Positions 34,082-57,967 are shown, counted from the stretch's first letter. The stretch is DNA of 64,000 bases from an uncultured bacterium (GCA_900319365.1 ONOE01000018.1:1-64000); one strand, 5' to 3'. A program made the numbers and translations. Notes: a model not told the origin generated them from the sequence alone.

Positions 34082-34154
34082 GCCGCAATAGCTCAGTTGG
34101 TAGAGCAAGGGACTGAAAATCCCTGTGTCCTTGGTTCAATTCCGAGTTGCGGCA
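34082..34154 (+). tRNA. tRNA-Phe (anticodon GAA)
   Basis: 73 nt: acceptor GCCGCAA/TTGCGGC (7 bp), D stem GCTC/GAGC, anticodon stem AGGGA/TCCCT with loop CTGAAAA (anticodon GAA), variable GTGTC, T stem CTTGG/CCGAG around TTCAATT, discriminator A. CCA is not encoded. The 3' half, from the anticodon loop on, is the left attachment repeat of the element that follows. A weak terminator (GCCCTT/AGGGGTTTT) lies 8 bases after the end. Confidence 0.95.
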
Positions 34155-34174
34155 TATTTTTTTGCCCTTATATA
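34113..34174 (+). repeat. attL of the tRNA-Phe element
   Basis: A 62-bp block starting in the tRNA-Phe anticodon loop (CTGAAAATCCC...) is identical to 40681-40742. It restores the intact tRNA at this end. Confidence 0.9.
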
Positions 34175-34227
34175 ACAGGGGTTTTAGCCAATACAGGGAT
34201 TTTATATTTTTGCATTAGAAATTAAAA

Positions 34228-34249
34228 TGGTACAATTTTGGTACAGTAA
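34228..34249 (+). other. Left arm-type site of the integrase
   Basis: A 22-bp block (TGGTACAATTTTGGTACAGT and two more bases) is repeated exactly at 40543-40564 near the other end of the element. Each contains GGTACA twice, as expected for arm-type integrase or Xis sites. Confidence 0.65.
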
Positions 34250-34384
34250 TATTATAAAAGGTTGCAAAAATGATAAGCCATTTTTGTTTTTCCATAAATA
34301 AATATTAAGTATCATATACTTTTTGACTTTATATCTTTGTATGAATAATTATTAATATGTAAGTATTCATTATAAGGGGTTTTT

Positions 34385-35095
34385 ATGAAAAATTTTAAAA
34401 ATATTATTAAAGTTGTTTTTGTTGTCATGCTTTTGTCTGTAGGTATTACTGCATATAGCATAGAAGGGAAAACGGTTAAGGACTTTGGGTTTGATGTAAT
34501 TATGTATGATAATGACCCGATTATTGTAGGATTTATTCAGGATTCTCCTACGGATAAAAATTTTAAAAATATTAGTATGATAAATAAAGTTAATAAAAAA
34601 AATGTAAGTTTATACTCTAGAATGAGTCAATATAGGAGGATATTAGAAAATATCGATAGTGATGTAGTAACTTTTAATATTACAAGAAATGGTAAAAAAG
34701 AAGATATAACCCTAACAAAAGATGATATTTTTGTTAGCGATTATATCAAATTGAGCGATTTTGTTTATCTAAACAAGAATATAAAAACTGACGGAGCATA
34801 TGCGTATGTATGGGATAAAGCAATAAAAACTAAAGATTTTCCTATATCTAATGTTCCAAATGCAACTTATATAAAAACAGAATCAAAAATTGATTGTACA
34901 GAAAAGAAAATACTAGATTTAAAACAATTATACTATGGTGAAAATGATGTATTTTTGAAAGAAGAAAAGTTTTCTGAATATGCGCCAATGGAAAGTGTTG
35001 CTCCTGATACAATAGGTGCGGATAAAGTTTATTATGCTTGTTTGAAATATGAAACTCAAAAATACGATAGAGAACATCCTAATTGGTTTGAGTAA
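34385..35095 (+). CDS. Secreted PDZ-like protein, cargo of the tRNA-Phe element
   Basis: 236 aa. The N-terminus FKNIIKVVFVVMLLSVGITAYS is a Sec signal peptide with cleavage probably after Ala-Tyr-Ser. Residues 30-115 resemble a PDZ domain (GFDVIMYDNDPIIVGFI, SMINKVNKKNVSLY, VVTFNITRNGKKEDITL), the layout used to recognise C-terminal peptides. Residues 115-236 contain two cysteines and no known fold. It is plus-strand, alone, right after the left attachment repeat. It may be an exported accessory factor of the element. It differs from the rest in lacking a DNA-related role. Confidence 0.65.
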   Translation: MKNFKNIIKVVFVVMLLSVGITAYSIEGKTVKDFGFDVIMYDNDPIIVGFIQDSPTDKNFKNISMINKVNKKNVSLYSRMSQYRRILENIDSDVVTFNITRNGKKEDITLTKDDIFVSDYIKLSDFVYLNKNIKTDGAYAYVWDKAIKTKDFPISNVPNATYIKTESKIDCTEKKILDLKQLYYGENDVFLKEEKFSEYAPMESVAPDTIGADKVYYACLKYETQKYDREHPNWFE

Positions 35096-35168
35096 AAAAA
35101 TATTAAATACAGTTTACATGCCTGTAATATTACGGTTATAAGCAATAAAAAAGAGGGTATATTCCCCC

Positions 35169-35375
35169 TTATGTTTGAATCTTATTTATATTTTCTTTTA
35201 TTGCTTTCATTCTTTCGCAAATACATTCAAGTCTTTTGTTAATTTCGTGTATTTCTTGATTGTTTTCGATATTTTGCTCTCTTTCAGTTTTGAGCATAAA
35301 ATTCAATGTTACGAGAGGATATTTTTCCCCGAGTTCTAATAATTTTGAAATACTGTCTTTGCTTGTTTCTGTCAT
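35169..35375 (-). CDS. Small coiled-coil protein of the element
   Basis: 68 aa, almost wholly helical: MTETSKDSISKLLELGEKYP, then KTEREQNIENNQEIHEINKR and LECICERMKAIKENINKI. There is no membrane span. It is divergent from the plus-strand module, with the operator-like repeats between them, so it could be a repressor or antirepressor partner, but no HTH is visible. Unknown. Confidence 0.5.
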   Translation of the reverse strand: MTETSKDSISKLLELGEKYPLVTLNFMLKTEREQNIENNQEIHEINKRLECICERMKAIKENINKIQT

Positions 35376-35429
35376 TTTAAATACTCCTATATTGCTGATT
35401 ACATAACAATTATGGCATATTTTGATATC

Positions 35430-35490
35430 GCAAAAGTTTAAATTTTTTGCGCAAAAGTGTAAACTTTTTAAGAAATATTTATGATATAAT
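35430..35490 (+). promoter_or_regulatory. Promoter with direct-repeat operator for the plus-strand module
   Basis: GCAAAAGT occurs at 35430 and 35451, exactly 21 bases (two helical turns) apart, each followed by TTAAA or GTAAAC. A good -10 TATAAT is at 35485-35490, 50 bases before the 177-aa gene. Confidence 0.6.
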
Positions 35491-35539
35491 TCGCACTTAA
35501 TTTTACAAGCCGATTGCCAAAAATCTTACTATTAAAGAT

Positions 35540-36073
35540 ATGAGAGGGAAAACGGCAAACAAAAAGCGAATAAGGTATAAAATCCCGACATATAAAAAGG
35601 TTTATTCTGTTTATCAGTATCACCGCAATAAATATTCAAGCATATTTAAGAAAATTCAAGCCCTTGCCCTGAAATATAATGAAAACATTTTTTATAAAAC
35701 GAATCCTTACAGGGTTCTAGATTTATGCTATAAGCGAGATAATCAAGGCAAATTGCAACATTTAGGGGATGAAAAACAGATATTCAGATATAAAGCCCTT
35801 GAAAGTGTCTTAAAAGAAATTGCCGATTATATTCTAATTGCTTATGAAATTATGCCTTGCCCTGATGTTTTACGATATTTATTCAACCGAACTCATTTAA
35901 TAATTTATAAGGATGAAAACCAAGCCGAATTACTTGAAACAATAGGGAAACCGATAGGAATAAGACTCAAAACTCATATAACATTATTAAAATGCTTGCA
36001 TACAGGCATGGAAATTGAAAATGCTATAAAAATAGCAAGGGAAAAATGTAATGTTGATTTCATAAAATCTTAA
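35540..36073 (+). CDS. Element protein of unknown function, 177 aa
   Basis: A basic N-terminus (MRGKTANKKRIRYKIPTYKK), then a helical body with YKALESVLKEIADYILIAYE and CPDVLRYLFNRTHLIIY, and a C-terminal helix with IENAIKIAREKCNVDF. There is no membrane span or recognised motif. The basic start suggests contact with nucleic acid. It leads the short plus-strand operon (next gene 20 bases away), controlled by the 21-bp spaced repeats upstream. Confidence 0.6.
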   Translation: MRGKTANKKRIRYKIPTYKKVYSVYQYHRNKYSSIFKKIQALALKYNENIFYKTNPYRVLDLCYKRDNQGKLQHLGDEKQIFRYKALESVLKEIADYILIAYEIMPCPDVLRYLFNRTHLIIYKDENQAELLETIGKPIGIRLKTHITLLKCLHTGMEIENAIKIAREKCNVDFIKS

Positions 36074-36093
36074 AATGTATTTATGGAGGATTT

Positions 36094-36444
36094 ATGCCGA
36101 ATATCAAAAATTTAAAATCGAACTCCGAGCGAACTCCGAAACAAAGGAAAGAACTTGCAAAAAAGGCGGGTATAATATCAGGGGAAAAACGCCGAGAGAG
36201 AAGAAAACTCAAAGATGAATTATTGATTTTACTATCAGAAAATGACACTCAAAAGAGAATTAGCGTTGCGCTTATACAGAAGGCATTACAAGGGGATGTA
36301 AAAGCATTTGTAACCATAAGAGATACAATAAATGAAGCCCCTGCGCAAAAGATTGAAATATCAGAAAATGAACTTATTGAAAACGGCTTAAAGAAAATCA
36401 AGGCAATGTTTCCCGATTATGAAAGCGAGGTTTACAATGTCTAA
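36094..36444 (+). CDS. Small phage-type KGG-like protein
   Basis: 116 aa. Opens NLKSNSERTPKQRKELAKKA, continues GIISGEKRRERRKLKDELLI (a G-x-x-S-G-E-x-R-R stretch) and ends with KALQGDVKAFVTIRDTINEAP. This pattern is typical of short phage and satellite proteins encoded just before terminase genes, with a KALxGDxKAFxxIRDT block. Its function is unproven; a role in DNA packaging or as a small-terminase-like factor is an inference. GGAGGA gives the start. It overlaps the next gene by 8 bases. Confidence 0.6.
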   Translation: MPNIKNLKSNSERTPKQRKELAKKAGIISGEKRRERRKLKDELLILLSENDTQKRISVALIQKALQGDVKAFVTIRDTINEAPAQKIEISENELIENGLKKIKAMFPDYESEVYNV

Positions 36445-36727
36445 AGTAGGCAAAAATAGACAAAAAACAGGCGGTAGGCAAAAGGGTACACCGAATAAAA
36501 AAACAAAAGAACTTATTGAAATTTTAGGGGCTTTCAATCCTGTTGAAAAACTCAAAGATATATTTGCAAATACTAAAGATGATTGCTTAAAAGCGAAAAT
36601 ATGCCTTGATTTATTGAAATATATCTATCCTCAAAGGAAAGCAATAGACTTTCAGGCAAGCGAAAATAACGGATTTACTGTAATTGTACAGGATGAAAAA
36701 ACGAAAAAAATGCTTGATGAACTATAA
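36437..36727 (+). CDS. Small DNA-binding-like protein, DUF5681-type
   Basis: 96 aa started at MSKVGKNRQKTGGRQKGTPN (36437), since the earlier in-frame codon at 36419 has no ribosome site. G-G-R-x-K-G-x-P-N-K is a motif of short phage proteins often listed as DUF5681. The next part (KELIEILGAFNPVEKLKDIF) is helical, and the end FTVIVQDEKTKKMLDEL resembles the small-terminase tail. Possibly a packaging specificity factor; uncertain. It is the last gene of the plus-strand module and convergent with the zinc-ribbon gene. Confidence 0.55.
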   Translation: MSKVGKNRQKTGGRQKGTPNKKTKELIEILGAFNPVEKLKDIFANTKDDCLKAKICLDLLKYIYPQRKAIDFQASENNGFTVIVQDEKTKKMLDEL

Positions 36728-36848
36728 AATAAAAGAGGTATCTCATACAGTATAAAAAGCCCTATTTTGAAAGTTTGTTACTTCTTATATGTATTTATAC
36801 CTCTTATATATAAAACTCTTAAATTTGAGCATTATTTTTGCATAATTA

Positions 36849-37091
36849 TCAAGTTTTTTCTTTTGCTTGTTTCTGTTTTCTATAATTCAAAAGATTATTT
36901 CTTAATTCGCTTTTTCTTTTATCAGATAATTTGCTTTTGTAGGTTTGGGAATCAAACTCAATTCCTAAACTCTTACAACATTCTTTGCAATACTTCCATT
37001 GAGGAGGGATTGTTTTTGCATTAGTAATATCTAAATCAGTCCAAGCATTATTACACTTTTTATTTTTACAATAATGTACTACATAAGACAT
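36849..37091 (-). CDS. Zinc-ribbon-like small protein of the element
   Basis: 80 aa: C-x(4)-C at residues 8-13 (HYCKNKKCNNAW) and C-x-x-C about 22 residues later (KYCKECCKSLG), a pattern for a single zinc ribbon, then a basic Lys/Arg-rich C-terminal tail. It could bind DNA or RNA. It follows the DUF1376 gene by about 150 bases and lies on the minus strand like the replication genes. Confidence 0.6.
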   Translation of the reverse strand: MSYVVHYCKNKKCNNAWTDLDITNAKTIPPQWKYCKECCKSLGIEFDSQTYKSKLSDKRKSELRNNLLNYRKQKQAKEKT

Positions 37092-37240
37092 TGTTTTTAC
37101 CTCCCTTATATGTTGTTTTACTGTTATCTAATATTGTGGATATTTCTATTTGCATTTTTATTTCTTCTTTCATTTTTATTTTTATTTTTATTTCTATTTT
37201 CCATAAGAAAAACACTTGATATTCACTTGAAAAACAAGTG

Positions 37241-37552
37241 TTATTTTATTTTTTTTGTTTTACCTAGTCTGTTTTTCCTGCGACTTTCAGTAAATGCCTT
37301 GCGTTTTATGATGATTTCTTCAAGCCATACACTATATAAGTGTCCTTTTTCATCACTTGTAAAAAGTTTTAAAACATCATCACTAATACCCGAACTGCTA
37401 AATTGTAGGCTTAATGTTTTTTGGTCTAAATGCCCCCTTTGATGTTGGAGGGATAAGAGGGTTATATATTCCCCTCTTTCCTCCATTGTTAAGGATGTGC
37501 ATTGAGCAAGAAAATCGCTTGTATAAAACAATATAGCGGGGTCTTTACTCAT
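37241..37552 (-). CDS. DUF1376 (YdaU-like) replication-linked protein
   Basis: 103 aa beginning DPAILFYTSDFLAQCTSLTM and EERGEYITLLSLQHQRGHLD, the hallmark of DUF1376 proteins encoded next to phage primases and replication initiators, where it binds DNA or partners. The full-length family is 150-250 aa; here only the N-terminal winged-helix-like part remains, followed by a basic tail. The start overlaps the primase-polymerase stop by 4 bases (ATGA type), so the two are translated together. Confidence 0.75.
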   Translation of the reverse strand: MSKDPAILFYTSDFLAQCTSLTMEERGEYITLLSLQHQRGHLDQKTLSLQFSSSGISDDVLKLFTSDEKGHLYSVWLEEIIIKRKAFTESRRKNRLGKTKKIK

Positions 37553-38499
37553 TGTTTATCCCCCTTTTGTAATGCTTTTTCAATGGTTTTTCTTAAATAG
37601 TCTTTCCGTTTAAGGCATTTATCTTTATGCGTTTGGTCTTTTTGCATAAAATAGGGGCTATTTAAGAAATATTCTTTTATTAAGCCATAATCTTTAAACC
37701 AATGAGCAAGTTTTGAGCAAAATCCTAAATCGTTTGCACTTTCATCATTTATAGGTCTTATGCCGTTGTAATATTTTTGCAAAGGTTCATCAACACTTAA
37801 TGCAAATTGAAAATGCTCTTTATAGCCCTGTAATTGTTTATCTGAAAATATCTTTTTTATAGGTTCTTGTAATGTTTCTGTTTTACATTCTATTTTTGAA
37901 AAATACTTATCATAAACAGTATCGCAAGCATTTTGCCTATGCATTATGCCTTTATCATTTATGACATTCCCCGACAAAGTAAAATAATGGTCTTTATCGT
38001 ACATTTCAAGGCATTTACACCATTTTAGATTATTGTTTTTGCATACATTCCCTTTTTTATGTGCATAGAATAAAATATGAATCCCCTTGCCGTTAATTGA
38101 TATTTCTGTATAACTATCAATTATATTTATGATTTCCAATGCTTCAGGGGTAATATTGCCGTTTTCGTCAATACATTCATCAATATCAATCCCGCATAAA
38201 TGCCCTTTATTTGTATCAGTAAAAACAATTCCGACACCTTTATATAGTTTGCATTTTTTGGAATAAGATAATGCTTGTTCTAAACTTCCCCAAGTGTTTG
38301 GATTATTTGTTTTTGCATACCCAAAGGCAAAAGGCAAACAAGGGGCTTTTTTTGAGTTGAAACAAACAAATATTTTTTGCTCTTTAAATACATCCTCAAT
38401 TATCTTTATTCCCTTGTTTATCGTTTCTTTATCTGTTATAATATTGTCATAAATGTTATTTTTGCTCTCAGCAATGAGGGCTTTTGTTTTTTGCGTCAT
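37549..38499 (-). CDS. Primase-polymerase (AEP superfamily, phage/plasmid type)
   Basis: 316 aa. The N-terminal domain has the three AEP motifs in order: CGIDIDECID (D-x-D, near residue 110), SINGKGIHILF (second motif) and LEMYDKDHYFTLSG (third, acidic residue and SG), a match to replicative prim-pols of satellite phages and plasmids. Residues 210-316 are a helical C-terminal half with YKEHFQFALSVDEPLQKYYN, of unclear role (a helicase domain is absent). It should prime or copy the element's DNA. It belongs to an operon with the DUF1376 gene downstream and the HTH gene upstream. Confidence 0.8.
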   Translation of the reverse strand: MTQKTKALIAESKNNIYDNIITDKETINKGIKIIEDVFKEQKIFVCFNSKKAPCLPFAFGYAKTNNPNTWGSLEQALSYSKKCKLYKGVGIVFTDTNKGHLCGIDIDECIDENGNITPEALEIINIIDSYTEISINGKGIHILFYAHKKGNVCKNNNLKWCKCLEMYDKDHYFTLSGNVINDKGIMHRQNACDTVYDKYFSKIECKTETLQEPIKKIFSDKQLQGYKEHFQFALSVDEPLQKYYNGIRPINDESANDLGFCSKLAHWFKDYGLIKEYFLNSPYFMQKDQTHKDKCLKRKDYLRKTIEKALQKGDKQ

Positions 38500-38518
38500 A
38501 AATTTTTCCTCTCTTTCC

Positions 38519-38746
38519 TTACTTGTTGTTTTGTTCTTCTAACCATTTAAAAAATTCTGCGACTTTTACATAAATCCTGCCACCTATACGGCTTATACAT
38601 CTTTCAATGCCGTATTTCTTGTAAAAAATCATTTGTCGTAAAGTTCCAACGCAAGGATAGGCAAAATATTTATTCCATTGAGATAATGGAATAATGCCTG
38701 AATTTTGAACATTCTCTGGAATAGATAATGTTTGAATGTTTTGCAT
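38519..38746 (-). CDS. AlpA/excisionase-like DNA-binding protein
   Basis: 75 aa. IIPLSQWNKYFAYPCVGTLR and QMIFYKKYGIERCISRIGGR then IYVKVAEFFKWL form the winged helix-turn-helix arrangement of AlpA/Xis-type regulators. Such proteins turn on excision or regulate the integrase. Location between primase and integrase genes fits. An operator-like set of CTTTTACAAAG/CTTTTGTAAAAG words lies 45-70 bases upstream. Confidence 0.65.
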   Translation of the reverse strand: MQNIQTLSIPENVQNSGIIPLSQWNKYFAYPCVGTLRQMIFYKKYGIERCISRIGGRIYVKVAEFFKWLEEQNNK

Positions 38747-38870
38747 TTTGTTTCCTCCTGTATTATGTAATTACTTGTAATAGACTTTTACAAAGTTAAT
38801 CCTTTTGTAAAAGATTACAAAAACAATCTAACAAGAGGTTTAAAATAAAACTGTTATGATTTATAACAGG

Positions 38871-39404
38871 TTATAGATTTTGAAATATTTTGTTAATAAA
38901 TCGGTAAACATCTTTTATAGAAATAATTGTTTCCGAATCCTTGGATTTTGATTTTTTTTCAACAAAGAAATATTTGCATTTTTTATCATTATAATAGTAT
39001 TTTTGTATAAATTTGTTATCGCAAAGTTTGTCGCCTATTCTATCAATGTATGTAGTTAAGTTGTTTTTTGGAATCCCTATTATATTGCAAATACTATCTT
39101 TTTCAAAACCTTGAATAATTAAGTAAATTATTGCTTTTTGCATTTTACTATGATTGTTTGATGTTATTTGTTTGAATAAATGTATAAATCTATCTTTTCC
39201 GCATAATTCAAAATCTATGTTGGCGAATACTTGAAATCTATTTTTTTCGCATAATTGATAAATCGAATTTTTACTATAATTTTCAGGAAATTCCTTTTTT
39301 ATTTCATTCTGAATCTTATTAAGTTCTTCAAAATACTTCTTGCTTACATTCAATATTTGAGTTGTATATTTATCAAATTCCGTTTGATTTTCCTGCATAA
39401 ACAA
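38871..39404 (-). CDS. Element protein of unknown function, 177 aa
   Basis: 177 aa, acidic-basic helical throughout. It includes a helix-turn-helix-like part near residues 95-125 (AIIYLIIQGFEKDSICNIIG, IPKNNLTTYIDRIGDKL). The start MFMQENQTEFDKY lies directly after the integrase stop (3-base gap) on the same strand, so it is co-transcribed with it. It may be a regulator of the integrase or excision. No family recognised. Confidence 0.55.
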   Translation of the reverse strand: MFMQENQTEFDKYTTQILNVSKKYFEELNKIQNEIKKEFPENYSKNSIYQLCEKNRFQVFANIDFELCGKDRFIHLFKQITSNNHSKMQKAIIYLIIQGFEKDSICNIIGIPKNNLTTYIDRIGDKLCDNKFIQKYYYNDKKCKYFFVEKKSKSKDSETIISIKDVYRFINKIFQNL

Positions 39405-39407
39405 TCC

Positions 39408-40514
39408 TTATAAGTTATTTTCTACCTTGCTAAACATTTCATCAGTTGTATTTTGTAATAATTCAGCCGTATGCTTTTGGGTTAAATGCGAGTATCTTTT
39501 AACCATTTGCATAGTTTTATGCCCTGTTACTTGCGCAATATCGAGCAAACTCCCTCCATTCATAGCAATATGGCTTGCGACTGTATGCCTTAAATCGTGA
39601 AATCTGCAATCAATACCGGCACTTTCAAGAACTTTATAAAACCTTACCCGCATATCAATAAGTTTTTTGCCGTCTTTAGTTGTAAACAGATAATCGCTTT
39701 TAATGTTACGAATCTTTTGAAATTCTTTTAACTCTTTATAAACCTTATCCGACATAGGCACACCCCTATTTTCCCCGTTTTTAGTGTTCATAAAGTAAAA
39801 TTGTTTATTCTTAAAATCAATATATTGCCACCTTAATTTATGGATTTCTGAATACCTTGCCCCCGTTGATAATGCTATCAATACAAATAAATGTGTTTCC
39901 TTGTTGTAGTTTTCCCCTTTTATTTCGTAATTCAAGCAAGCATTTAACAATTTATTGATTTCATCAGGCATTAGGAATCTATCCTGTTTTGCCGTTTCCG
40001 TAAATTTGCGAACTTTCAACATAGGATTTTCTTCAATCCAGCCCCATTCTTTGCACCCGAAAGACAAAACTATTGATAAACAAGCCATATATCTATTAGC
40101 CGTTGCCCCTGTTCTTGTTGTTCTTCCCCCCTTTGGTTTGGGGCTTGTTTCCGTAACTAATTTTTCTTTACATTCAGATAATAAAGCGGGAGTAATATTT
40201 GAAAGCAAATACATTCCTATATGTTGTTTCCACCATTCTAATTGCATTTTATATTTCTTATGGTCTGTTTCCTTGCGTTTTGGCAATTCTATTTCAATAT
40301 AACGGTCTATAAGGTCATTAAGTGTATGTTTTTTTGCTTCATAGTCGTTAATATGCTTTCCCTCTTTCATTAAGGGTTCATTCTGTCCTATCCATTTACG
40401 AGCGGATGTAATTTTATCAAAACTTGCCGTCATTGTAGGATATCCTTTTACCCTTATAACGGCTTTATATGTAATAGTTCCGTCTTTTTTAGTTCGCTTT
40501 TGAATAGTTGCCAT
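39408..40514 (-). CDS. Tyrosine integrase of the tRNA-Phe element
   Basis: 368 aa. An N-terminal Arm-DNA-binding domain (residues 1-65, TIQKRTKKDGTITYKAVIR), a SAM-like core-binding domain (66-165) and the catalytic domain with Arg in STGARYSEIHKLRW (about 218), HDLRHTVASH (His-x-x-Arg) and the GHKTMQMVKRYSH box with the active-site Tyr of RYSH near residue 342. It cuts at the 62-bp tRNA-Phe repeats. It is transcribed leftwards from the right attachment repeat, which is 170 bases upstream. Complete and with all catalytic residues. Confidence 0.94.
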   Translation of the reverse strand: MATIQKRTKKDGTITYKAVIRVKGYPTMTASFDKITSARKWIGQNEPLMKEGKHINDYEAKKHTLNDLIDRYIEIELPKRKETDHKKYKMQLEWWKQHIGMYLLSNITPALLSECKEKLVTETSPKPKGGRTTRTGATANRYMACLSIVLSFGCKEWGWIEENPMLKVRKFTETAKQDRFLMPDEINKLLNACLNYEIKGENYNKETHLFVLIALSTGARYSEIHKLRWQYIDFKNKQFYFMNTKNGENRGVPMSDKVYKELKEFQKIRNIKSDYLFTTKDGKKLIDMRVRFYKVLESAGIDCRFHDLRHTVASHIAMNGGSLLDIAQVTGHKTMQMVKRYSHLTQKHTAELLQNTTDEMFSKVENNL

Positions 40515-40542
40515 AATGCTTTACACCTCTTTTATAATTTTT

Positions 40543-40564
40543 TGGTACAATTTTGGTACAGTAA
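40543..40564 (+). other. Right arm-type site of the integrase
   Basis: Exact copy of the 22-bp sequence at 34228-34249, located between the integrase start and the right attachment repeat. Confidence 0.65.
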
Positions 40565-40680
40565 ATTTATAAAAATCTATAAAATTATATAAAAAAGTAT
40601 AAAGGATAAAATGCTTAAAGTCAAGCAATATCAAGAAAATTCTTATTACAAGTTTTTATAAGGTTTTATAAAAACACCGT

Positions 40681-40742
40681 CTGAAAATCCCTGTGTCCTT
40701 GGTTCAATTCCGAGTTGCGGCATATTTTTTTGCCCTTATATA
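40681..40742 (+). repeat. attR of the tRNA-Phe element
   Basis: 62 bases identical to 34113-34174 (CTGAAAATCCC through the T-arm and acceptor to CCCTTATATA). Only the 3' part of the tRNA is present here, so this copy is not a gene. It keeps the terminator-like GCCCTT/AAGGG hairpin just after. Confidence 0.9.
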
Positions 40743-40843
40743 GCAAGGGTTTTGGCGATTTAATCAAAATTAAAAATTCTTGTTAGTTTTAAAATTCTTG
40801 TTATTTATATTTTAATGACCGTTTTGACTTGTACGGGTAGTGT

Positions 40844-41015
40844 TACTGTATTAGTTCAATCACTTTGACAGGAACGGTTAGTTTGATATTTTTTTGTAAA
40901 GTCCGCATGTTGTTTGAGTTTTAGCGGTCGGAAGTTGTTTAATTATAGAATTATCAAACTAATCTTTCTTGCACTTTATCTGCATTTTAACTGCTCGCAC
41001 TTTCACTTTATTTTC
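40844..41015 (+). repeat. 172-bp direct repeat, left copy
   Basis: Aligns without gaps with 46201-46372 with 7 differences in 172 bases by my count (about 96%). It contains an internal inverted repeat (TTAGTTTGATA at about 40878 and its complement at about 40952). The pair encloses the helicase/J-domain/PspA operon and the membrane protein gene. Confidence 0.85.
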
Positions 41016-41061
41016 GATATTTTGCGGTCATTTGAAATTATTATTGAACATATTTTGACAC

Positions 41062-41209: not shown

Positions 41210-41962
41210 TTATGAATCTAAATCTTTCTTTAAATCATCTATGTTATCGTTATTTATATTATCCGGATTTGCTAACAATTTTTGTTTCATTTCTGCTAAT
41301 GATTTTTGAACATCTAAATCAGTACCTATTGCTTTATTTATTTCATCATCAACCGACGTTTCAACTAATGCAACTTCTCCATATGCTTCTGCTAAATTTT
41401 CTTCCGCACTTATTCTTGTTTTCATGTCCTCTATCATTGCCATTGTTGAATCAGAACCAATTGTTGAAAGCTGTTGATTTACTTTTTTAGTTGTTTTCGC
41501 AACAGTAGCCCTAGCTTTTAGTGAATTGTATTCATTTTCGGATTCTTTAATTTTATTTTTTAATTCCAGTATTTTTTTACTCATTTGTTCTAAAGAAGCA
41601 TCATAATTTTTAGCATCATTAGTTAATCTTTCTACTTCTTTCAATGCTTCTTGTCTTTTTTTGAGAGCTTCTGATGCAAGTCTGTCAGCTTCTGATTCAT
41701 CAAGTTCTCCGTTTTTCGCTTTTTGTAGAAGAATCATAGCTTTTTGTTCATAATCTGCAGCAATTTGTTTTTTTGTTTCCAATTCTTTCTTTGTACCAAT
41801 TGCAATTGCTTTTATTTGAGCAACACTTTTCATTGAGTCATCAAAATCTTTTTTCAAATCACGAATTCCTTGCTCGATAAGTTTTACAGGGTCTTCAAAT
41901 CTTGATAAAAGAGCATGTGCTTCTGATTGAAAAAACTTTAAAATTCTAATTAGTAAATTCAT
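41210..41962 (-). CDS. PspA/IM30 (Vipp1) family protein
   Basis: 250-aa ESCRT-III-like membrane-remodelling protein: an amphipathic N-terminal helix (NLLIRILKFFQSEAHALL), RFEDPVKLIEQGIRDLKKD, the long helical hairpin (residues 30-190) with LAEAYGEVALVETSVDDEIN near the end. PspA proteins polymerise on stressed inner membranes. Here it is the last gene of an operon with a J-domain protein (4-base overlap) and a helicase, which is unusual: stress PspA is normally with pspF/pspBC. This suggests a membrane-guarding arm of a defence-type operon, an inference. Confidence 0.85.
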   Translation of the reverse strand: MNLLIRILKFFQSEAHALLSRFEDPVKLIEQGIRDLKKDFDDSMKSVAQIKAIAIGTKKELETKKQIAADYEQKAMILLQKAKNGELDESEADRLASEALKKRQEALKEVERLTNDAKNYDASLEQMSKKILELKNKIKESENEYNSLKARATVAKTTKKVNQQLSTIGSDSTMAMIEDMKTRISAEENLAEAYGEVALVETSVDDEINKAIGTDLDVQKSLAEMKQKLLANPDNINNDNIDDLKKDLDS

Positions 41963-42294
41963 AAAAACTTCCTTTCAAAATATGTATATGCTTCATTGAT
42001 TTGTCTTGTTACTTCTTGTGCTGACTTTAATTTCTCAGGTTTATTTTGAAATAAATCAGGATGGTATTTTTTTAGCAATTTTTTATATGCTTTTTTGATA
42101 CTGTTAAAATCACTTCCATATTCTAATTCTAAAATTTTGTAATATTTTTTTTCAAGTTGATTTTCTTCACTTGGAATTGTTTTTGAATCACTATAATAAA
42201 TGTCATCATATGAATCCATATCTATATTAATATTTTCTTCTTTATGATTTATATTGCTTTTTATAATATTTTCAATTCTTTTGAATAAACTCAT
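41959..42294 (-). CDS. J-domain protein
   Basis: 111 aa. Residues 50-105 form a J-domain with YYKILELEYGSDFNSIKKAY and LLKKYHPDLFQNKPEKL (the HPD tripeptide that stimulates Hsp70 ATPase) and QEVTRQINEAYTYFE. The N-terminus SLFKRIENIIKSNINH echoes the PspA amphipathic helix, so it may bind membrane or PspA. No G/F region, zinc fingers or client domain. Translationally coupled on both sides: 1 base after the helicase stop and overlapping the PspA start by 4 bases. Confidence 0.85.
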   Translation of the reverse strand: MSLFKRIENIIKSNINHKEENINIDMDSYDDIYYSDSKTIPSEENQLEKKYYKILELEYGSDFNSIKKAYKKLLKKYHPDLFQNKPEKLKSAQEVTRQINEAYTYFERKFL

Positions 42295-42295
42295 C

Positions 42296-44845
42296 TTATA
42301 TCCATACTCTGCATTGTTTTAAGAAACCATAATCAAGAACATTGAATTTAGCTTTTAACAGTTCTTTGTATCCATTAGGATTTCTTGTGTATATTATATC
42401 AAAATATCCGTTATTTTGTTCAAGGTATTTTACGAAAGTTTTTACATTTTTATTATGTCCTGCTATACATTCAGGCACGGCAATATATTTTTCGCCTTGT
42501 TTTAATATATACCTATTTTTATCATTAATACTGAAAATTTCACTAAAAGCATTCATAAAAATATTTCTTTCGTAGTTATTGCAACCGGAAAGTGTTATAT
42601 AAAATTTAGAATTTAATTCTGTGTTGAACACCAAGTTCATATTATAAAAATTTGTCTTTATTATTGATAAGTCGTACATTGTATATAATAGACTTTGTGC
42701 CAAATTTTTAAGATTATTTTCTTGCTCATATATTAAATAATTGTTACTTATTATGTTTTCATAATCATCAGATATAAAGTTAAAATGATGACAAATTTTT
42801 AAAAACAATTTTTCAATGTAATTCAGATTTACTTTTTTTCTTGACGTACTGCATTTTTCTATCACTGGAATTAATCCGTTGCACCACGTCGGTATAATAT
42901 TGCAAATAATTGTTTGTTGTGTATTTTCACCTAACATGACGTCATAAACTTGAGGAGCCATTTTACTTTCTGTAATATTACTTTTACCGAAGACTTGATT
43001 CCACATGTTTATTAAGTTATTTCGATTTTTTGCATAACTCATTATTTTTTTATCTATTGTTTCACAGTTCAGAGAATAAATATCATTTTGTTTAATTCCT
43101 AATCTTTCTATACCATTTTGTATTTTGTTATCTTTATAACTTATACCTTCAAATGTATTAAATCTTTTTTCCGCTGTTTGTAAATCTGGGGATTGTTCAT
43201 TATTTGTAAGAGATACCAAGTGCCAAATATTAGAAGTTTTATTCGGATTATTTTTGTCTATTCTTAAAGCTCTACCTCGCATTTGATTTGATAACATGAA
43301 AGAACCGACAACGGATGCTATTATAAGAGTATTTACACAAGGAGAGTCCCAACCCTCACCTAAAAGTGCAGACGTACCGATTAAAATATTCATATAACCT
43401 TTTTCAAAAAGTTCGGTAATAATAGATACAATATCAATATTTCCATAGGTTTCAACTCTCACATAGTTTGCATTAAATTCTGTAGTTAAAACTTTTGAAG
43501 ATTCAATATTTCTATTATTTAAAATTGAATACAATTCCTCTTTAGCAGTTTTTGGTATAACAATAAGAGAGCCTGTTAATATTCCGCAATTAATTTTTAT
43601 ATCTTGGAGTTTATCAAAAACTGATAAAATATTTACACCTTCACTATCACCTTTACCTATATAATCCAGCAGTATAACTTCTCTTAATTGATTTTCAAGA
43701 TTTTTAAACTCGCAATCAGTAATATTATATATGGCCTCTAATTTATTTTTACTTCTTGCAAAAAGTTTTTTAAAATCCACCTTGCCTGTAAAATCTACCA
43801 TTTTGCCATTTATTAAGTTATACTCTTTTAATTTACCTTTTATTATAGGTACATTTTTGAATTGTCCGCTAAATTCTCCGATTATTCCGTTGAATAAAAT
43901 TTCTGCCTGTTCATAATCAAATTTAGGAATTTGTTCAAGTGTTAATCCTAAAAATTCCGTTAGTATTCTTGCGTTCATATTCAGTTCATCTTCATGTAAA
44001 AGGTATGAAATAAGTGCAACTGTAAAGTTCGTATTTTTATAGATTATATCGACATTATTATCCAAATTTGTTATAAAAGGGGAACCTTCTATTGCATATA
44101 AAATATCAGAATGTTCATTAATATCTTTAAAAAAAGCATTTCTTTTTTCTTCAAAATCAAAAATGATTTTTTGCTCTTCTTCTGTTAAATTTGAAAAATA
44201 GATTAAATCTTGGTGCGGACATAAATCACCCGCTTTTACAAGTTCAGGAATTGATATTTCTGCATCAACAGGCCCGCATAAAGATTGATAATTATTCCAC
44301 TCGGCAGGTGAAACGTCATATGGAGGAGTTCCTGTCAATGAAACAATTTTAAAATTCTCATTATTTAATTCTTTGTATAAACTATTTAAAGTAGCCCACC
44401 ATTCTGTCCTTAAATGATGAGCTTCATCAAGAACCAATGTGTTTATTTTTAAATCTTTTAATTGTTTTATAAATTTTTCACGTTCTTCAATATTTTTATA
44501 AAGTGAATGCAAGCCTTGATAAGTAGAAACAGTTATTTCTGAAATATTTTTGATATCTGTACTTATTAAATCAGAATTAAAATCAGAGGGTAAAAAATTA
44601 TCCAGAATTCGTTGTTTCCATTGATTTTTTATAGTAATTGTCGGTGCTAAAATAAACGCAGGATTTTTTAATCTTAAAATAACTTCAATCCCTAACGTAG
44701 TTTTACCCGCTCCGGGGGCTGCAACAACATTCAGTTTATTGTCATCTAAATGATATTCTAATTCATTAAGGACTCTTTGCTGATAAGAACGCCAACAACC
44801 TTTGAATTTAAGTTGGGATATTATAAAACTATTTTTTAATTCCAT
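42296..44845 (-). CDS. DEAD/DEAH-box SF2 helicase, 849 aa
   Basis: Double-RecA helicase: Q-like start WRSYQQRVLNEL, Walker A VAAPGAGKTT (residues 40-49), Walker B VLDEAHHL (about 137-144), motif III SLTGTPPYD, a large inserted region (200-440), then motif V GTSALLGEGWDSP and VI QMRGRALRID (about 530-545). Residues 600-849 form a C-terminal domain of unknown fold. It resembles restriction-type helicases (type III/ DISARM-like) by motif spacing but has no nuclease motif that I can see. First gene of a three-gene operon with J-domain and PspA proteins. A DNA or RNA translocase feeding a membrane response is the working idea. Confidence 0.85.
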   Translation of the reverse strand: MELKNSFIISQLKFKGCWRSYQQRVLNELEYHLDDNKLNVVAAPGAGKTTLGIEVILRLKNPAFILAPTITIKNQWKQRILDNFLPSDFNSDLISTDIKNISEITVSTYQGLHSLYKNIEEREKFIKQLKDLKINTLVLDEAHHLRTEWWATLNSLYKELNNENFKIVSLTGTPPYDVSPAEWNNYQSLCGPVDAEISIPELVKAGDLCPHQDLIYFSNLTEEEQKIIFDFEEKRNAFFKDINEHSDILYAIEGSPFITNLDNNVDIIYKNTNFTVALISYLLHEDELNMNARILTEFLGLTLEQIPKFDYEQAEILFNGIIGEFSGQFKNVPIIKGKLKEYNLINGKMVDFTGKVDFKKLFARSKNKLEAIYNITDCEFKNLENQLREVILLDYIGKGDSEGVNILSVFDKLQDIKINCGILTGSLIVIPKTAKEELYSILNNRNIESSKVLTTEFNANYVRVETYGNIDIVSIITELFEKGYMNILIGTSALLGEGWDSPCVNTLIIASVVGSFMLSNQMRGRALRIDKNNPNKTSNIWHLVSLTNNEQSPDLQTAEKRFNTFEGISYKDNKIQNGIERLGIKQNDIYSLNCETIDKKIMSYAKNRNNLINMWNQVFGKSNITESKMAPQVYDVMLGENTQQTIICNIIPTWCNGLIPVIEKCSTSRKKVNLNYIEKLFLKICHHFNFISDDYENIISNNYLIYEQENNLKNLAQSLLYTMYDLSIIKTNFYNMNLVFNTELNSKFYITLSGCNNYERNIFMNAFSEIFSINDKNRYILKQGEKYIAVPECIAGHNKNVKTFVKYLEQNNGYFDIIYTRNPNGYKELLKAKFNVLDYGFLKQCRVWI

Positions 44846-45155: not shown

Positions 45156-45267
45156 GTATGGTTAATTCCCATCAAGTATAATGTGTCCACAGATTAAAGT
45201 CTGCATTCTACAAGTTTATTATTTTAAATTCTTGACTTCAAAACTTATACTATCATATAATCATTAT

Positions 45268-46116
45268 ATGAGAGTATATAACATTTCAAGTAAAACAACA
45301 TCAATTAATTATATAGTTGGATTAATATTTTTTATATTTTTGATTTTAATAAATTTTTTAGCTTACGGGTATTCTGTTGAATGGCATTTATCGTTTGAAA
45401 GCTTTGTTGACTGGTATTTTAGTATTATAAAATTAATTTTTAACTCTAATAATGAATTAAGATGGGTTTATGCTCTATTAATTTTTTCGCCCATTCTATT
45501 TTTTATTTTATTTATATATGAATTTTTTGTGCGAAAACTAGAAATTGATAAACTTAACAAAGAACTAAATTTAATATATATTGATTTCAAAGATGACGGA
45601 ATCCTCTTTAAATTCAATAGAGAAGATAATGATTTTAGTTGTAATTATGCTCAAATATCAAGTACAAATTTAGAAATATGCACAAGGCAAGCATATAGTC
45701 GTTATGGCTGGCATTCTATAGTATATGAGATAATAGTTGAATTTAATATTCTTGATAAAGGTAAATACAAATTGAATAATATACCAAAAGATATATATGC
45801 AATTATAAAGTATCTTGCTAAATCTAAAAATTTCAAATATGAAATTACCGGCTCCGGATATGATATTAAAGATAGGTTAAGTAAAAATATTGATGAATTT
45901 TTATCTAATGGGTTTAAAAAACCTAATATACACAGGCAAATGTCCTCTTTTTATTTAGTATTTGCTATTATATTTTTAGTTTTGGGGGTTATCACATCAT
46001 TTAATGGGCTATTTTCTTTAATTTTGGATAGTCACATGTGGGGATTATTAGTATTACCAATAATATTTTTTGGAGTTCCGATTATTTTGCTATTAACAAT
46101 TTTAAATAACAGATAA
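45268..46116 (+). CDS. Multi-pass membrane protein, 282 aa
   Basis: Start at MRVYNISSKTTS (45268), chosen because the longer frame from 45181 starts in non-conserved sequence. Two spans near the N-terminus (YIVGLIFFIFLILINFLA; WVYALLIFSPILFFILFIY), a soluble beta-rich domain (110-215, FKDDGILFKFNREDNDFSCN) like a PH-type domain, and two C-terminal spans (FYLVFAIIFLVLGVITSF; LLVLPIIFFGVPIILLL). Function unknown. It lies between the helicase operon and the right 172-bp repeat, facing the opposite way, so it belongs to the same bounded segment. Confidence 0.65.
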   Translation: MRVYNISSKTTSINYIVGLIFFIFLILINFLAYGYSVEWHLSFESFVDWYFSIIKLIFNSNNELRWVYALLIFSPILFFILFIYEFFVRKLEIDKLNKELNLIYIDFKDDGILFKFNREDNDFSCNYAQISSTNLEICTRQAYSRYGWHSIVYEIIVEFNILDKGKYKLNNIPKDIYAIIKYLAKSKNFKYEITGSGYDIKDRLSKNIDEFLSNGFKKPNIHRQMSSFYLVFAIIFLVLGVITSFNGLFSLILDSHMWGLLVLPIIFFGVPIILLLTILNNR

Positions 46117-46200: not shown

Positions 46201-46372
46201 TACTGTATTAGTTCAATCACATTGATAGAAATGGTTAGTTTGATATTTTTTTGTAAAGTTCGCTTGTTGTTTGAGTTTTAGCGGTCGGAAGTTGTTTAAT
46301 TATGGAATTATCAAACTAATCTTTCTTGCACTTTATCTGCATTTTAACTGCTCGCACTTTCACTTTATTTTC
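46201..46372 (+). repeat. 172-bp direct repeat, right copy
   Basis: Ungapped match to 40844-41015. It runs directly into a short tandem duplication of TAGTTTGATATTTTACG (46386-46420), which lies in the 3' end of the small pseudogene that follows. Confidence 0.85.
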
Positions 46373-46649
46373 AATGCTTTTCGGTAGTTTGATATTTTAC
46401 GATTAGTTTGATATTTTACGTCGATGTGAAAATAAAAAAAACATTTTTCATTATCAATAAAAAATACATTTAATAAATCTGCGTTTTGTCTTAAATTTTT
46501 AATTACGGGTGCAAGGTTGTAACATTCTTCTATTTCAGGTTGTTTGCTAACGAAATAATCAACGATAACGGCTATATTATAAACATTTTCTGCCCATTTA
46601 CTAATTTGTTTAAATTCTTTTTCTGTAATATTGTATCCTGCTCTTCCAT
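46360..46649 (-). pseudogene. Frameshifted small gene
   Basis: GGAGGATATT precedes ATG at 46649, whose frame begins MEEQDTIL and then stops after 25 codons. The neighbouring frame continues with EKEFKQISKWAENVYNIAVI, VDYFVSKQPEIEECYNLAPV and LNVFFIDNEKCFFYFHIDV, a good protein-like sequence. A one-base loss around codon 9 would explain this. The 3' end runs into the duplicated TAGTTTGATATTTTACG units and the 172-bp repeat, so the repeat probably cut the tail. Function unknown. Confidence 0.6.
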
Positions 46650-46735: not shown

Positions 46736-49024
46736 TTAATCTATGTATTCCCAGTCATCTGGTTTGTTTAAGAAAGAATTATAAATCTCTTTTTTGTTGA
46801 TTCTTAATTTATTATTTGTATCGACAATAATAATACCGCCTACAATATTCTTTCCTTTTGTATTTTCTTCCTTTATATATTTTTGCAATGCTTCAGCTTT
46901 GATTTTATTATCATCTTCTTGAAATCCTGCATCTTTTGTATCATAAATGCCAAGAGAGTTGTCAGTATGCATTACGATAAAATCAGGTTGAAATGTTGTT
47001 GTATCAGGTTTTTGAACACCAAAATTGTCACGCATGTGTTCATCTCCATTTTTCCACCACCATTTTACATTAACAGACTCTTCCAAATACTTAATAAATG
47101 CCTTTTCTGGGTTGCTTCTTGCTTTTTCAAGATAGCAAGGCATGGTTATGCTTTTAATAGCATCAATTTTTTCAAATGTTTCAGGATTATAACTGCGACT
47201 TTCCGGGATTTCCCATTGCAAATCCCAATTTACTAAATTTTGAGCTTTAATTTTTAGTTCTTCATCTTTTATTGGTTTATATGATTCAGTAGATTGTGCA
47301 AGAATTAGTCCAAATATTCTGTAATTATTTAATATGACAGATTGTATGTATACCATTTCGTTTTCAAGTTCCCTGGTACATAAATACTCTCTGAAAAATC
47401 TATATAAAGACTCTTTAACTGGAGATAAAGATCTTTTATATGCAAATCCGCTTAAATTATCTTTTATAAGTTTATTTACCAGTAGCAATTTATCATCTTC
47501 AGATAATGAAGTCTCTATCGTTTCTTCCGCTCGAATTTCTTTCAATCCATCTATTAATTGAGGCTGTATTGTTTCGTTTAGCATGATTTTATCATTATCA
47601 GTTAAATTCGCTAAAGTAATTTTATTTGATATAATTTTAGCATTTTTATCTTTATAAAAAGCTCCTTTTTCTGAATTATTTAATTCAAAATATTCACAAC
47701 ATACTTTTTCCAAAATAGGATAGAATTTTAATGAATTTGTTATATCACCATAATCCAGTCTTTGTCTATAATATGACTTCAATTTTAATAATTGATACTT
47801 TTCACTGTTTCTTCTGGAATGTAAATTTTTAAGAATATTGGGATTATAATCTTCTTTTTTCACATTTATACTTTCAATATTAGAAAATACATAACCTCTA
47901 TTCAGAATTTCATTATCGTAATGTTTTCCTTCAGGCATTCTTAGAATTCTACCGACCGTTTGGATTTCAAAAACAATACTCTGAGTTTCTCTAAATTTTA
48001 CTAATATTTGTGCCCTTGGACAGTCCCAACCTGTATCAATAGCTTGTTTAAAAATCAAAAAATCCACATTACTATCATTTGGAATTATATATGGACTTTC
48101 TGTATTTTGTTTTTCTTCCGATAACCATATTGCCAAATTACCATCGATTGTAGAAATCCCTTTATCTTGTAAAAATTTTTTAACAAACTCTCTTTTTACG
48201 TCGCCTTCGTCACTATTTGGCAATTGTATTAAAACTAAAGGATTTATATTTACTCCATTATCTTCATATGCTTCTTTTAATTCCAAGCGTTTTTTATAAG
48301 CACATTCCATAACTAATTCTTGTGAGTCAATATCTTCTTCGCTTATTTCATCAATATCTTGATTTATAATAATTTCTTTTTTAATTAACCCTTCTGATAT
48401 CGGATCATTCGGATTTACTTTTACTAATTTATCATATTGATTTAATGCAGGTGTTGCACTCATTTCAAGAGTTATCGTCGGTTTTATAATTTCATCTCTT
48501 AACTCTGTAGCCCTATCCGTCGTCGTACCTTGATGGCTCTCATCAATAATTAAAATAATTTTTCTTCCTTCTTGACGAGTGTTTTCAAGAATTTCTGGGA
48601 AATTATATGTTTCCTTATCTTTCATTAAAACATTTTTCCACTCACCACTTAAACTATCTTTTTGATTGATTTTATCCCAATTGACTACAACCACTTCGTT
48701 TTTACCAATATAGCTTCGAGTACCAAAAAACTCTTGTTCTAACAAATATACACTAGGAGCTCCTTTAAAATATTTTATTAGTGATTTGTAACTTTGCTTA
48801 TGTAATTCGCCTTTTCCAATACTAACCCACACAAAACAAAAATCTTCGTTTGAAAAATCTATATCTAATGCTAATTTTTGAATTATATTAGACATAGTAT
48901 ATGTTTTACCAGAACCAGTTGGTGACTGAAAAACAATTGAACCTTCTCTCTTTTCTTCAAGAATTTCTTTAACTTCATTTAAAATTTTATTTATTGCTTT
49001 TTCTTGGAAAAGTTTTAAATCCAT
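46736..49024 (-). CDS. Type III restriction enzyme, Res subunit
   Basis: 762 aa. Helicase-nuclease subunit that translocates between two inversely oriented recognition sites and cuts with its partner methylase. Walker A SPTGSGKTYTMS (near residue 33), Walker B IILIIDESH (about 157-165), SATPALN, IDTGWDCPRAQILVKF and VGRILRMPEG are the SF2 motifs. The C-terminal PD-(D/E)XK nuclease is visible as FQPDFIVMHTD...LGIYDTKDAG (about 670-700). The frame is complete. Its methylase partner next door is truncated, so the enzyme likely lacks specificity and may be inactive. Confidence 0.92.
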   Translation of the reverse strand: MDLKLFQEKAINKILNEVKEILEEKREGSIVFQSPTGSGKTYTMSNIIQKLALDIDFSNEDFCFVWVSIGKGELHKQSYKSLIKYFKGAPSVYLLEQEFFGTRSYIGKNEVVVVNWDKINQKDSLSGEWKNVLMKDKETYNFPEILENTRQEGRKIILIIDESHQGTTTDRATELRDEIIKPTITLEMSATPALNQYDKLVKVNPNDPISEGLIKKEIIINQDIDEISEEDIDSQELVMECAYKKRLELKEAYEDNGVNINPLVLIQLPNSDEGDVKREFVKKFLQDKGISTIDGNLAIWLSEEKQNTESPYIIPNDSNVDFLIFKQAIDTGWDCPRAQILVKFRETQSIVFEIQTVGRILRMPEGKHYDNEILNRGYVFSNIESINVKKEDYNPNILKNLHSRRNSEKYQLLKLKSYYRQRLDYGDITNSLKFYPILEKVCCEYFELNNSEKGAFYKDKNAKIISNKITLANLTDNDKIMLNETIQPQLIDGLKEIRAEETIETSLSEDDKLLLVNKLIKDNLSGFAYKRSLSPVKESLYRFFREYLCTRELENEMVYIQSVILNNYRIFGLILAQSTESYKPIKDEELKIKAQNLVNWDLQWEIPESRSYNPETFEKIDAIKSITMPCYLEKARSNPEKAFIKYLEESVNVKWWWKNGDEHMRDNFGVQKPDTTTFQPDFIVMHTDNSLGIYDTKDAGFQEDDNKIKAEALQKYIKEENTKGKNIVGGIIIVDTNNKLRINKKEIYNSFLNKPDDWEYID

Positions 49025-49025
49025 A

Positions 49026-49616
49026 TCATCCTCTTACGTTTTCTTTTATAATTTTTTTATAAATATCTAATATTTTCTGCGGAATAGTTTTAATTTTATA
49101 GTTGTTAATTTCTTCAAACAATTCATTGTCTATTTTATCATCCATTGAAAACATATAAATTATTTTTTGCCCTTCTAATTTTTTCAAAGAGTTCAAAAAA
49201 TCTTCAAAACTGTCATTTATAAAATTATAATAAACACATAAATATTTATCTTTTTTGTTAGATTCAAAAATTTTATAATCTTCTTGTTCTTCCTTTAAAT
49301 TATAAATATTTTCTTTTAAACATAACATTTCAGTACATTTGTATGTTAAATTCACCTTTAATTGTTCAGTATTTTCAGAATTTTTAATAAAGTCAGTTTT
49401 GAAATATTGAAGATTTCCACCCAATCCTTCTATAAATTCACCACTTCCATTTTTATTGTATCCATTTATCACTTTTTCAATTCTTGGATAACATACTTCT
49501 GTACAAATATTATTTTCATTATTTGTGCAAAGTATAAAATTTCTATTGCCATGATCTTTTTTGTTTAATGTTAAGACTGCTTGTGCTGTAGTCCCTGAGC
49601 CTGCCATAAAATCCAA
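49026..49616 (-). pseudogene. Type III methylase (Mod), C-terminal fragment
   Basis: The frame opens abruptly in LDFMAGSGTTAQAVLTLNKK (methyltransferase motif I, SAM binding), followed by the C-terminal domain with KDKYLCVYYNFINDSFEDFL. In beta-class type III Mods the catalytic DPPY motif and recognition domain come before this part, and both are absent; a stop codon lies 4 codons upstream. So the 5' two thirds are gone at about 49620. Its 3' end is 1 base before the Res start, the normal mod-res order, so it was once an intact system. Confidence 0.85.
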
Positions 49617-57384: not shown

Positions 57385-57942
57385 CTAATATATATACGTG
57401 CCATTATCAGTTTTAGTTTGAACCATAAAATCAGAATCTTCTAATGCTTTTTTAATTAAATTCTTTTTGAATGGAATATGCAAAGTTGGAACATTTTCCA
57501 TATTATCTCTGAATACAGGTAATTTATCCCACAATTTTTTAATTTTTTCTTTTATATTTCCATCTTTAGCAATATCTTCTTTTTCTTCATAATCAGGATA
57601 AACAACTATAATTGGTAATTCACAATTATTTATTCCATATTCAATTTCTTCTCTTAATGCTCTGCTATTTGCAGTATTTTCACTTAAAAATAAAATTATA
57701 TTTTTGGAATTATTTAATCTTTGATGTAATCTCGGCTTTAATGTTTTTTCCCAATCGCTACCATCTCTTACATCATAAGTTTTATCGTGAGAATCATTAA
57801 AAGGAAACTCCGAATCTTTTGCTTTCCACGCTCTTAATAAATTGTAATAACAAAAATCTTTCGCCTGATTTGCCCCTAAATTACTCTCTTTAAAAGGTTC
57901 CTTGACATAAAAAGCTGAATAATTACCATTCCTGTACGACAT
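57385..57942 (-). CDS. TIR-like protein, Thoeris ThsB type
   Basis: 185 aa started at MSYRNGNYSAFYVKEPF (57942), with AAAGGAGA 7 bases upstream. Features of the Thoeris ThsB/TIR-like (DUF1863/MTH538) fold: an N-terminal strand and helix, DGSDWEKTLKPRLHQRLNNS, KNIILFLSENTANSRALREE (the acidic E-E-I-E helix that would supply the catalytic Glu) and LPIIVVYPDYEEKED. In Thoeris this enzyme senses phage and makes an NAD-derived nucleotide signal. It is 25 bases after the gene for a TM-Macro protein, the expected effector partner. Confidence 0.8.
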   Translation of the reverse strand: MSYRNGNYSAFYVKEPFKESNLGANQAKDFCYYNLLRAWKAKDSEFPFNDSHDKTYDVRDGSDWEKTLKPRLHQRLNNSKNIILFLSENTANSRALREEIEYGINNCELPIIVVYPDYEEKEDIAKDGNIKEKIKKLWDKLPVFRDNMENVPTLHIPFKKNLIKKALEDSDFMVQTKTDNGTYIY

Positions 57943-57967
57943 GATACATTCTCCTTTCTTTTTCATC

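Follow-up and report, generated by a model that had tools for sequence, protein, structure and literature searches.

PspA and Vipp1 are relatives of ESCRT-III that are found across life, and PspA binds membranes through its amphipathic N-terminal helix. Partners of PspA and Vipp1 outside the proteobacteria are largely unexplored. In the chloroplast, the J-domain co-chaperone CDJ2 and HSP70B assemble and disassemble VIPP1 oligomers (PMC6882379), which provides a precedent for chaperone control of such a polymer. The binding of PspA to stressed membranes and its membership in the ESCRT-III superfamily are established (PMC8281802). A survey of Psp partners published in 2024 lists AAA+, CesT/Tir, band-7 and polyamine genes (PMC11237479), and its main text contains neither the word "helicase" nor the word "DnaJ". 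As nothing relevant to a PspA-helicase-DnaJ operon was found in the open-licence literature, we provisionally regard the operon described here as new.

The window, by which we mean the whole stretch of 64,000 nucleotides that was analyzed, contains such an operon. ORF calling places a helicase gene (helA), a J-protein gene and a PspA gene head to tail on the minus strand, with a 1-base gap between the first two and a 4-base overlap between the last two (Table 1), and thus confirms the ORFs, the helicase size and the spacing given in an earlier sequence-only reading of the same DNA. Public records identify the relatives of the window DNA as Candidatus Gastranaerophilales or uncultured cyanobacterium; the host lineage consists of gut bacteria related to cyanobacteria. 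Promoter and terminator scans gave matches at chance level.

Table 1. Features of the window in and around the helA operon.
Feature	Position	Strand	Remarks
HelA, SF2 translocase/helicase	42296..44845	-	849 aa, operon gene 1
J-domain protein	41959..42294	-	111 aa, HPD at residues 78-80
PspA/IM30 family protein	41210..41962	-	250 aa
Left copy of direct repeat	40844..41039		196 nt, flanks operon block
Right copy of direct repeat	46201..46396		196 nt, 93% identical to left copy
ORF with hydrophobic stretches	45181..46116	+	311 aa, inside repeats, no family match
Integrative element	34113..40756		tRNA-Phe 3'-end repeats 34113-34188 and 40681-40756; separate from operon
Tyrosine integrase	39408-40514		within tRNA-Phe element
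Type III R-M locus	46736-49616	-	Res-like protein, Mod piece
Thoeris pair	57385-58804	-	ThsB, ThsA

Judged by its retained motifs and by Pfam scores above cut-off (ResIII 2.5e-20, DEAD 3.8e-11, Helicase_C 2.9e-5), HelA is a predicted SF2 helicase of the XPB-like type. It carries a Walker A motif GAGKT (residues 45-49), a DEAHH box (140-144) and a motif VI QMRGRALR (521-528), and in an alignment of 41 sequences the Walker A motif, the DEAH box and the motif VI arginines are invariant or nearly so. A helical insert separates the two RecA domains, and residues ~694-849 form an orphan alpha/beta domain at the C-terminus. HelA falls outside the XPB repair helicase equivalog NF045503, against which it scores 48 bits (cut-off 610). 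The predicted structure is a good model (pLDDT 85, pTM 0.81), and its core aligns with an XPB chain (Z 24.9, 377 residues, 4.5 A), with FANCM (Z 22.5, 389 residues, 4.6 A), with RIG-I (Z 22.0, 420 residues, 9.8 A) and with RadD (Z 21.3, 325 residues, 4.3 A); these matches of a model name a fold class and not a function. Modelled alone, the C-terminal domain folds well (pLDDT 90). Foldseek returned no match for it below E 0.8, and the best VIA Z of 5.3 is not meaningful; such an absence of structural matches does not show that the fold is new.

The two smaller proteins are readily assigned to families. The product of the second gene matches the Pfam DnaJ domain (1.7e-12, 47.7 bits versus a cut-off of 27.8), which makes it a J-domain protein, and the HPD motif is invariant across the aligned J set. 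Its N-terminal helix, MSLFKRIENIIKSNIN, had already been called PspA-like, and this is borne out by comparison with shuffled sequences, as residues 1-20 fit the profile of the PspA N-terminus in this lineage better than the shuffles do (p about 0.0007). The same fit was obtained for 22/22 J proteins of the window's N-terminal type (p <= 0.016); the divergent J protein of genus g25 lacks the PspA-like N-terminus in the same profile test, and in its amphipathic character alone the helix does not differ significantly from shuffles (p 0.08). The third gene encodes a PspA_IM30 domain (2.4e-37, 129 bits versus a gathering score of 33.9) and therefore a member of the PspA family, the sole PspA of this 1.95-Mb genome. 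With 56 bits against a cut-off of 243, it lies outside the classical Psp-response equivalog TIGR02977, and no PspF, PspB or PspC partners were recognized by eye beside the operon copies.

The three-gene order is not a chance neighbourhood. It recurs in 10 genomes from 5 genera (G000, G020 and G021; G318 and G197; G354; G295; G188, G245 and G296). Each protein was searched separately in 383 genomes of one Gastranaerophilales family. A helicase of the HelA type, with 47-72% identity over nearly the full length, was present in 21 of these genomes, and PspA in 32. All 21 HelA genomes contain PspA, against 1.8 expected (hypergeometric 6.5e-27, ignoring relatedness), and all 21 contain J proteins of the window's kind, linked or unlinked. 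The sequence-only reading had asked for a search for this gene order in other genomes and had named a lack of co-occurrence as a result that would speak against a defence or stress system; in fact, the order recurs and co-occurrence is strong genome-wide. On a species-marker tree of ClpX from 28 genomes, the informative independent pairs all point in the same direction but are few (5 for J, sign test 0.06; 4 for PspA, sign test 0.125).

Co-inheritance extends to genomes in which the genes are unlinked. The three genes are not together in 11 of the 21 HelA genomes. Ten of the 21 have HelA alone, with J and PspA close together elsewhere in the genome, and in G075 the J gene is a divergent neighbour of helA while PspA is found elsewhere with a CesT/Tir partner. 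Nearly every genome with a J gene has it close to PspA, and seven such genomes lack HelA. In the g6 genomes that were read, the two genes lie within a PspA - DUF4178 - DUF350 - spermidine synthase operon. J-PspA gene pairs with no linked helicase were also noted at loci L077, L078, L080 and L090. The constancy of the J-PspA pair, the separate location of HelA in 10/21 genomes and the resemblance of its XPB-like motor to repair helicases would all suit mere co-regulation, in which J serves PspA as its dedicated adaptor to DnaK, while the helicase does an unrelated cytoplasmic repair or RNA job under the same stress and no complex is formed. We consider this doubtful, as it leaves unexplained why each of the 21 HelA genomes also has PspA and J, and why J also tracks the helicase, as indicated by G075, where the neighbour of J is helA rather than PspA.

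Two lines of phylogenetic evidence suggest a single origin of the operon and its transfer as a unit between genera. All ten PspAs encoded in the operon fall into one clade (support 99/97); 2 of the 10 operon genomes also carry a second, different PspA. In addition, the helicase tree joins G000 (g1) with G318 (g2) and G020 (g1) with G354 (g84) with good support, in contradiction to the ClpX tree, which separates g1, g2 and g84 (G020 itself is not in the ClpX tree, as its ClpX was not recovered). The groupings in the PspA tree are compatible with the helicase-tree joins. The possibility of a lineage housekeeping set, considered in the sequence-only reading, agrees with the ordinary chromosomal loci of the genes but not with their patchy, horizontally moved distribution.

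Direct repeats flank the operon in the window, as had been noticed before, and they are real. Elsewhere in the genome, only two weak partial copies of the repeat were detected. The repeats also enclose the unrelated ORF at 45181, which was not found beside other operon copies and is therefore probably not part of the system; there is thus no support for reading the repeats as the ends of a mobile unit. An integrative element to the left could be rejected as the carrier of the operon, since its tRNA-Phe repeats stop at 40756, before the operon, and the recombinase gene previously listed as an operon neighbour turns out to be the integrase of this separate element. The element also holds small phage-like genes. 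Transfer between genera and the repeats around the window copy might suggest selfish or addiction-like cargo that mobile DNA spreads without any function for the host. This is very improbable, given that the unit contains neither a toxin nor a recombinase, that the ATPase motifs are kept, and that an unrelated ORF also lies within the repeats of the window.

HelA forms a branch within a widespread and uncharacterized XPB/RIG-I-like SF2 family. A genome scan with the helicase returned at least 574 relatives, and the 80 that were listed include Bacteroidota, Firmicutes, Planctomycetota, Omnitrophota and Proteobacteria. We refer to the uncharacterized proteins of about 900 aa that are annotated as "DEAD/DEAH box helicase family protein" in many phyla as family B. 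HelA shares its motor, its insert and its C-terminal domain with family B, at about 31-40% identity. What sets family B apart is a hydrophobic hairpin-like segment and, among the loci listed from the genome scan, the absence of J or PspA neighbours. A motif YTRN..GR..LLKAR in the orphan C-terminal domain is conserved in family B across many phyla (loci L230-L300). No recurrent neighbour of family B in other phyla was found among the 80 listed loci, beyond neighbours common to close species, and 122 proteins from family B flanks gave only scattered defence matches.

The hydrophobic stretch of family B lies between the motor and the C-terminal domain and is recognized as hairpin-like from hydropathy alone. 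Peak hydropathy of this linker has a median of 2.06 in the 69 family B relatives listed from the genome scan (61 of them at or above 1.6, 8 below), and reaches at least 1.76 in 12/12 family B members of the window's own order. The same measure is lower in 20 HelAs, with a median of 1.24 and no value above 1.51. The alignment likewise shows that the stretch is missing from most HelAs. Altogether, 20/21 helicases of the PspA-linked type lack the hairpin. The exception is again G075, with a HelA of 1273 aa (L034, 364-4185, minus strand) that has a large insertion in the C-terminal domain with about six hydrophobic segments. Apart from this genome, it is thus the helicase type co-inherited with a membrane-binding polymer that has lost its own hydrophobic segment. 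A HelA that has no built-in anchor but does have co-inherited partners suggests that J and PspA now hold it at the membrane; co-regulation alone would not explain why only HelA has lost the segment. The analysis also reveals, in family B, a large uncharacterized family of XPB-like helicases from many phyla that are probably membrane-anchored; nothing relevant to such a family was found in the open-licence literature.

Operon and family B can occupy the same chromosomal site. In G021, the operon is located between a response regulator gene and rpsP-tig-clpP-clpX, where other members of the genus have family B: in the nine that were read, a family B helicase (~915 aa) lies beside that response regulator, near rpsP in 8/9. 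The response regulator/rpsP site is free of a helicase in G001, G003 and G009, and so is the rpsP locus of the window's own genome. No genome among the 383 contains both HelA and family B, which does not amount to significant mutual exclusion, since only about 1.9 joint genomes would be expected.

The surroundings of the HelA loci do not support the idea that the operon belongs to defence islands. Other HelA loci with visible flanks are mostly situated among lipid, tRNA, ribosome and cell-wall genes, and in 18 of the 19 outside the window no recognized defence gene was found. The exception is G318, the nearest relative of the window, with an AbiL-like ATPase on its short contig; this was also the one clear defence-type match in a PADLOC scan of 90 flanking proteins. 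Recurrence in defence islands, a point raised in the sequence-only reading, is therefore rejected as a general feature. The type III R-M, Thoeris (TIR) and integrase genes of the window do not recur near other HelA copies. The type III R-M locus is indeed next to the operon, yet it encodes a 762-aa Res-like protein and only a 196-aa C-terminal piece of the Mod methyltransferase, and looks decayed. The Thoeris pair, consisting of the TIR protein ThsB (PDLC00421, 4.4e-81) and the macro-domain protein ThsA (PDLC00413, 2.3e-68), is a strong match but about 13 kb away from the operon.

The operon proteins themselves could not be matched convincingly to a named defence system, as had been stated before. 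Searches of the three proteins against PADLOC-DB 2.0.0 gave only weak generic helicase and coiled-coil matches (best E 8.4e-6), nothing convincing, and Pfam shows no TerB domain, which Shango combines with a helicase and an ATPase, in any of the three. Viral origin was considered and rejected, because a scan of viral contigs with the helicase found no relatives and the J protein matched no phage record. Helicase relatives in four plasmid or secondary-replicon records are only 28-29% identical. It is thus unlikely, in our assessment, that the operon acts in anti-phage defence, with the helicase as the sensor of phage nucleic acid and with J/DnaK releasing PspA to seal or damage the membrane. 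Such a role would fit the patchy distribution (21/383) and the transfer between genera, the presence of RIG-I/MDA5 among the best structural matches of HelA, the location of the window copy near R-M and Thoeris genes, the AbiL-like neighbour in G318, and the mediation of phage sensing by DnaJ that is reported for another system (PMC12169576). Against the mostly non-defence neighbourhoods, the lack of viral or phage relatives and of convincing PADLOC matches, and the lack of a toxin-like domain in the operon, the defence reading is weak.

Together, the above observations are consistent with an operon for a membrane-recruited nucleic-acid translocase, in which J and PspA tether HelA in trans, a reading that we hold with slightly less than even confidence. 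PspA and the J protein would then replace the built-in membrane anchor that HelA is missing, in a complex in which J would bridge HelA and PspA. Recruitment of DnaK by J (a DnaK-like ORF, L196, was identified by eye in the window's genome) would build or strip the PspA polymer. Under envelope stress, the helicase would thereby be brought to membrane sites, where it may act on DNA or RNA, or be set free from them. More tentatively, different anchors may replace one another in holding the motor at the membrane: a built-in hairpin across many phyla, in one genome an insertion with several TM segments, and here a PspA polymer with a J adaptor in trans. If so, PspA would recruit DNA or RNA machinery in addition to sealing membranes. 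The conserved and mobile link between PspA, J protein and SF2 helicase offers a testable case for the coupling of membrane remodelling to nucleic-acid work.

Comparison with described systems shows partial likeness in each case. HelA has the core fold of XPB/RadD/FANCM/RIG-I-like SF2 translocases, but differs from them by an XPB family score far below the cut-off and by its extra orphan C-terminal domain. The CesT/Tir-PspA-DUF4178-DUF350-spermidine synthase operon described by Ravi et al. (2024, PMC11237479) is also present in the window's lineage, and in the g6 genomes the position upstream of PspA is filled by J instead of the CesT/Tir chaperone; the three-gene operon is distinguished from it by the absence of DUF4178, DUF350 and synthase, and by the presence of the helicase. 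With the chloroplast VIPP1/IM30 and CDJ2-HSP70B circuit (PMC6882379), the operon would share a J-domain co-chaperone acting on a PspA/IM30 polymer, a likeness suggested by gene adjacency and by the similar N-terminal helices, and we propose by analogy that J/DnaK may remodel PspA as CDJ2/HSP70B remodels VIPP1. The chloroplast circuit has no helicase, and the J protein described here is tiny (111 aa), with an N-terminal helix like that of PspA and a gene adjacent to the PspA gene.
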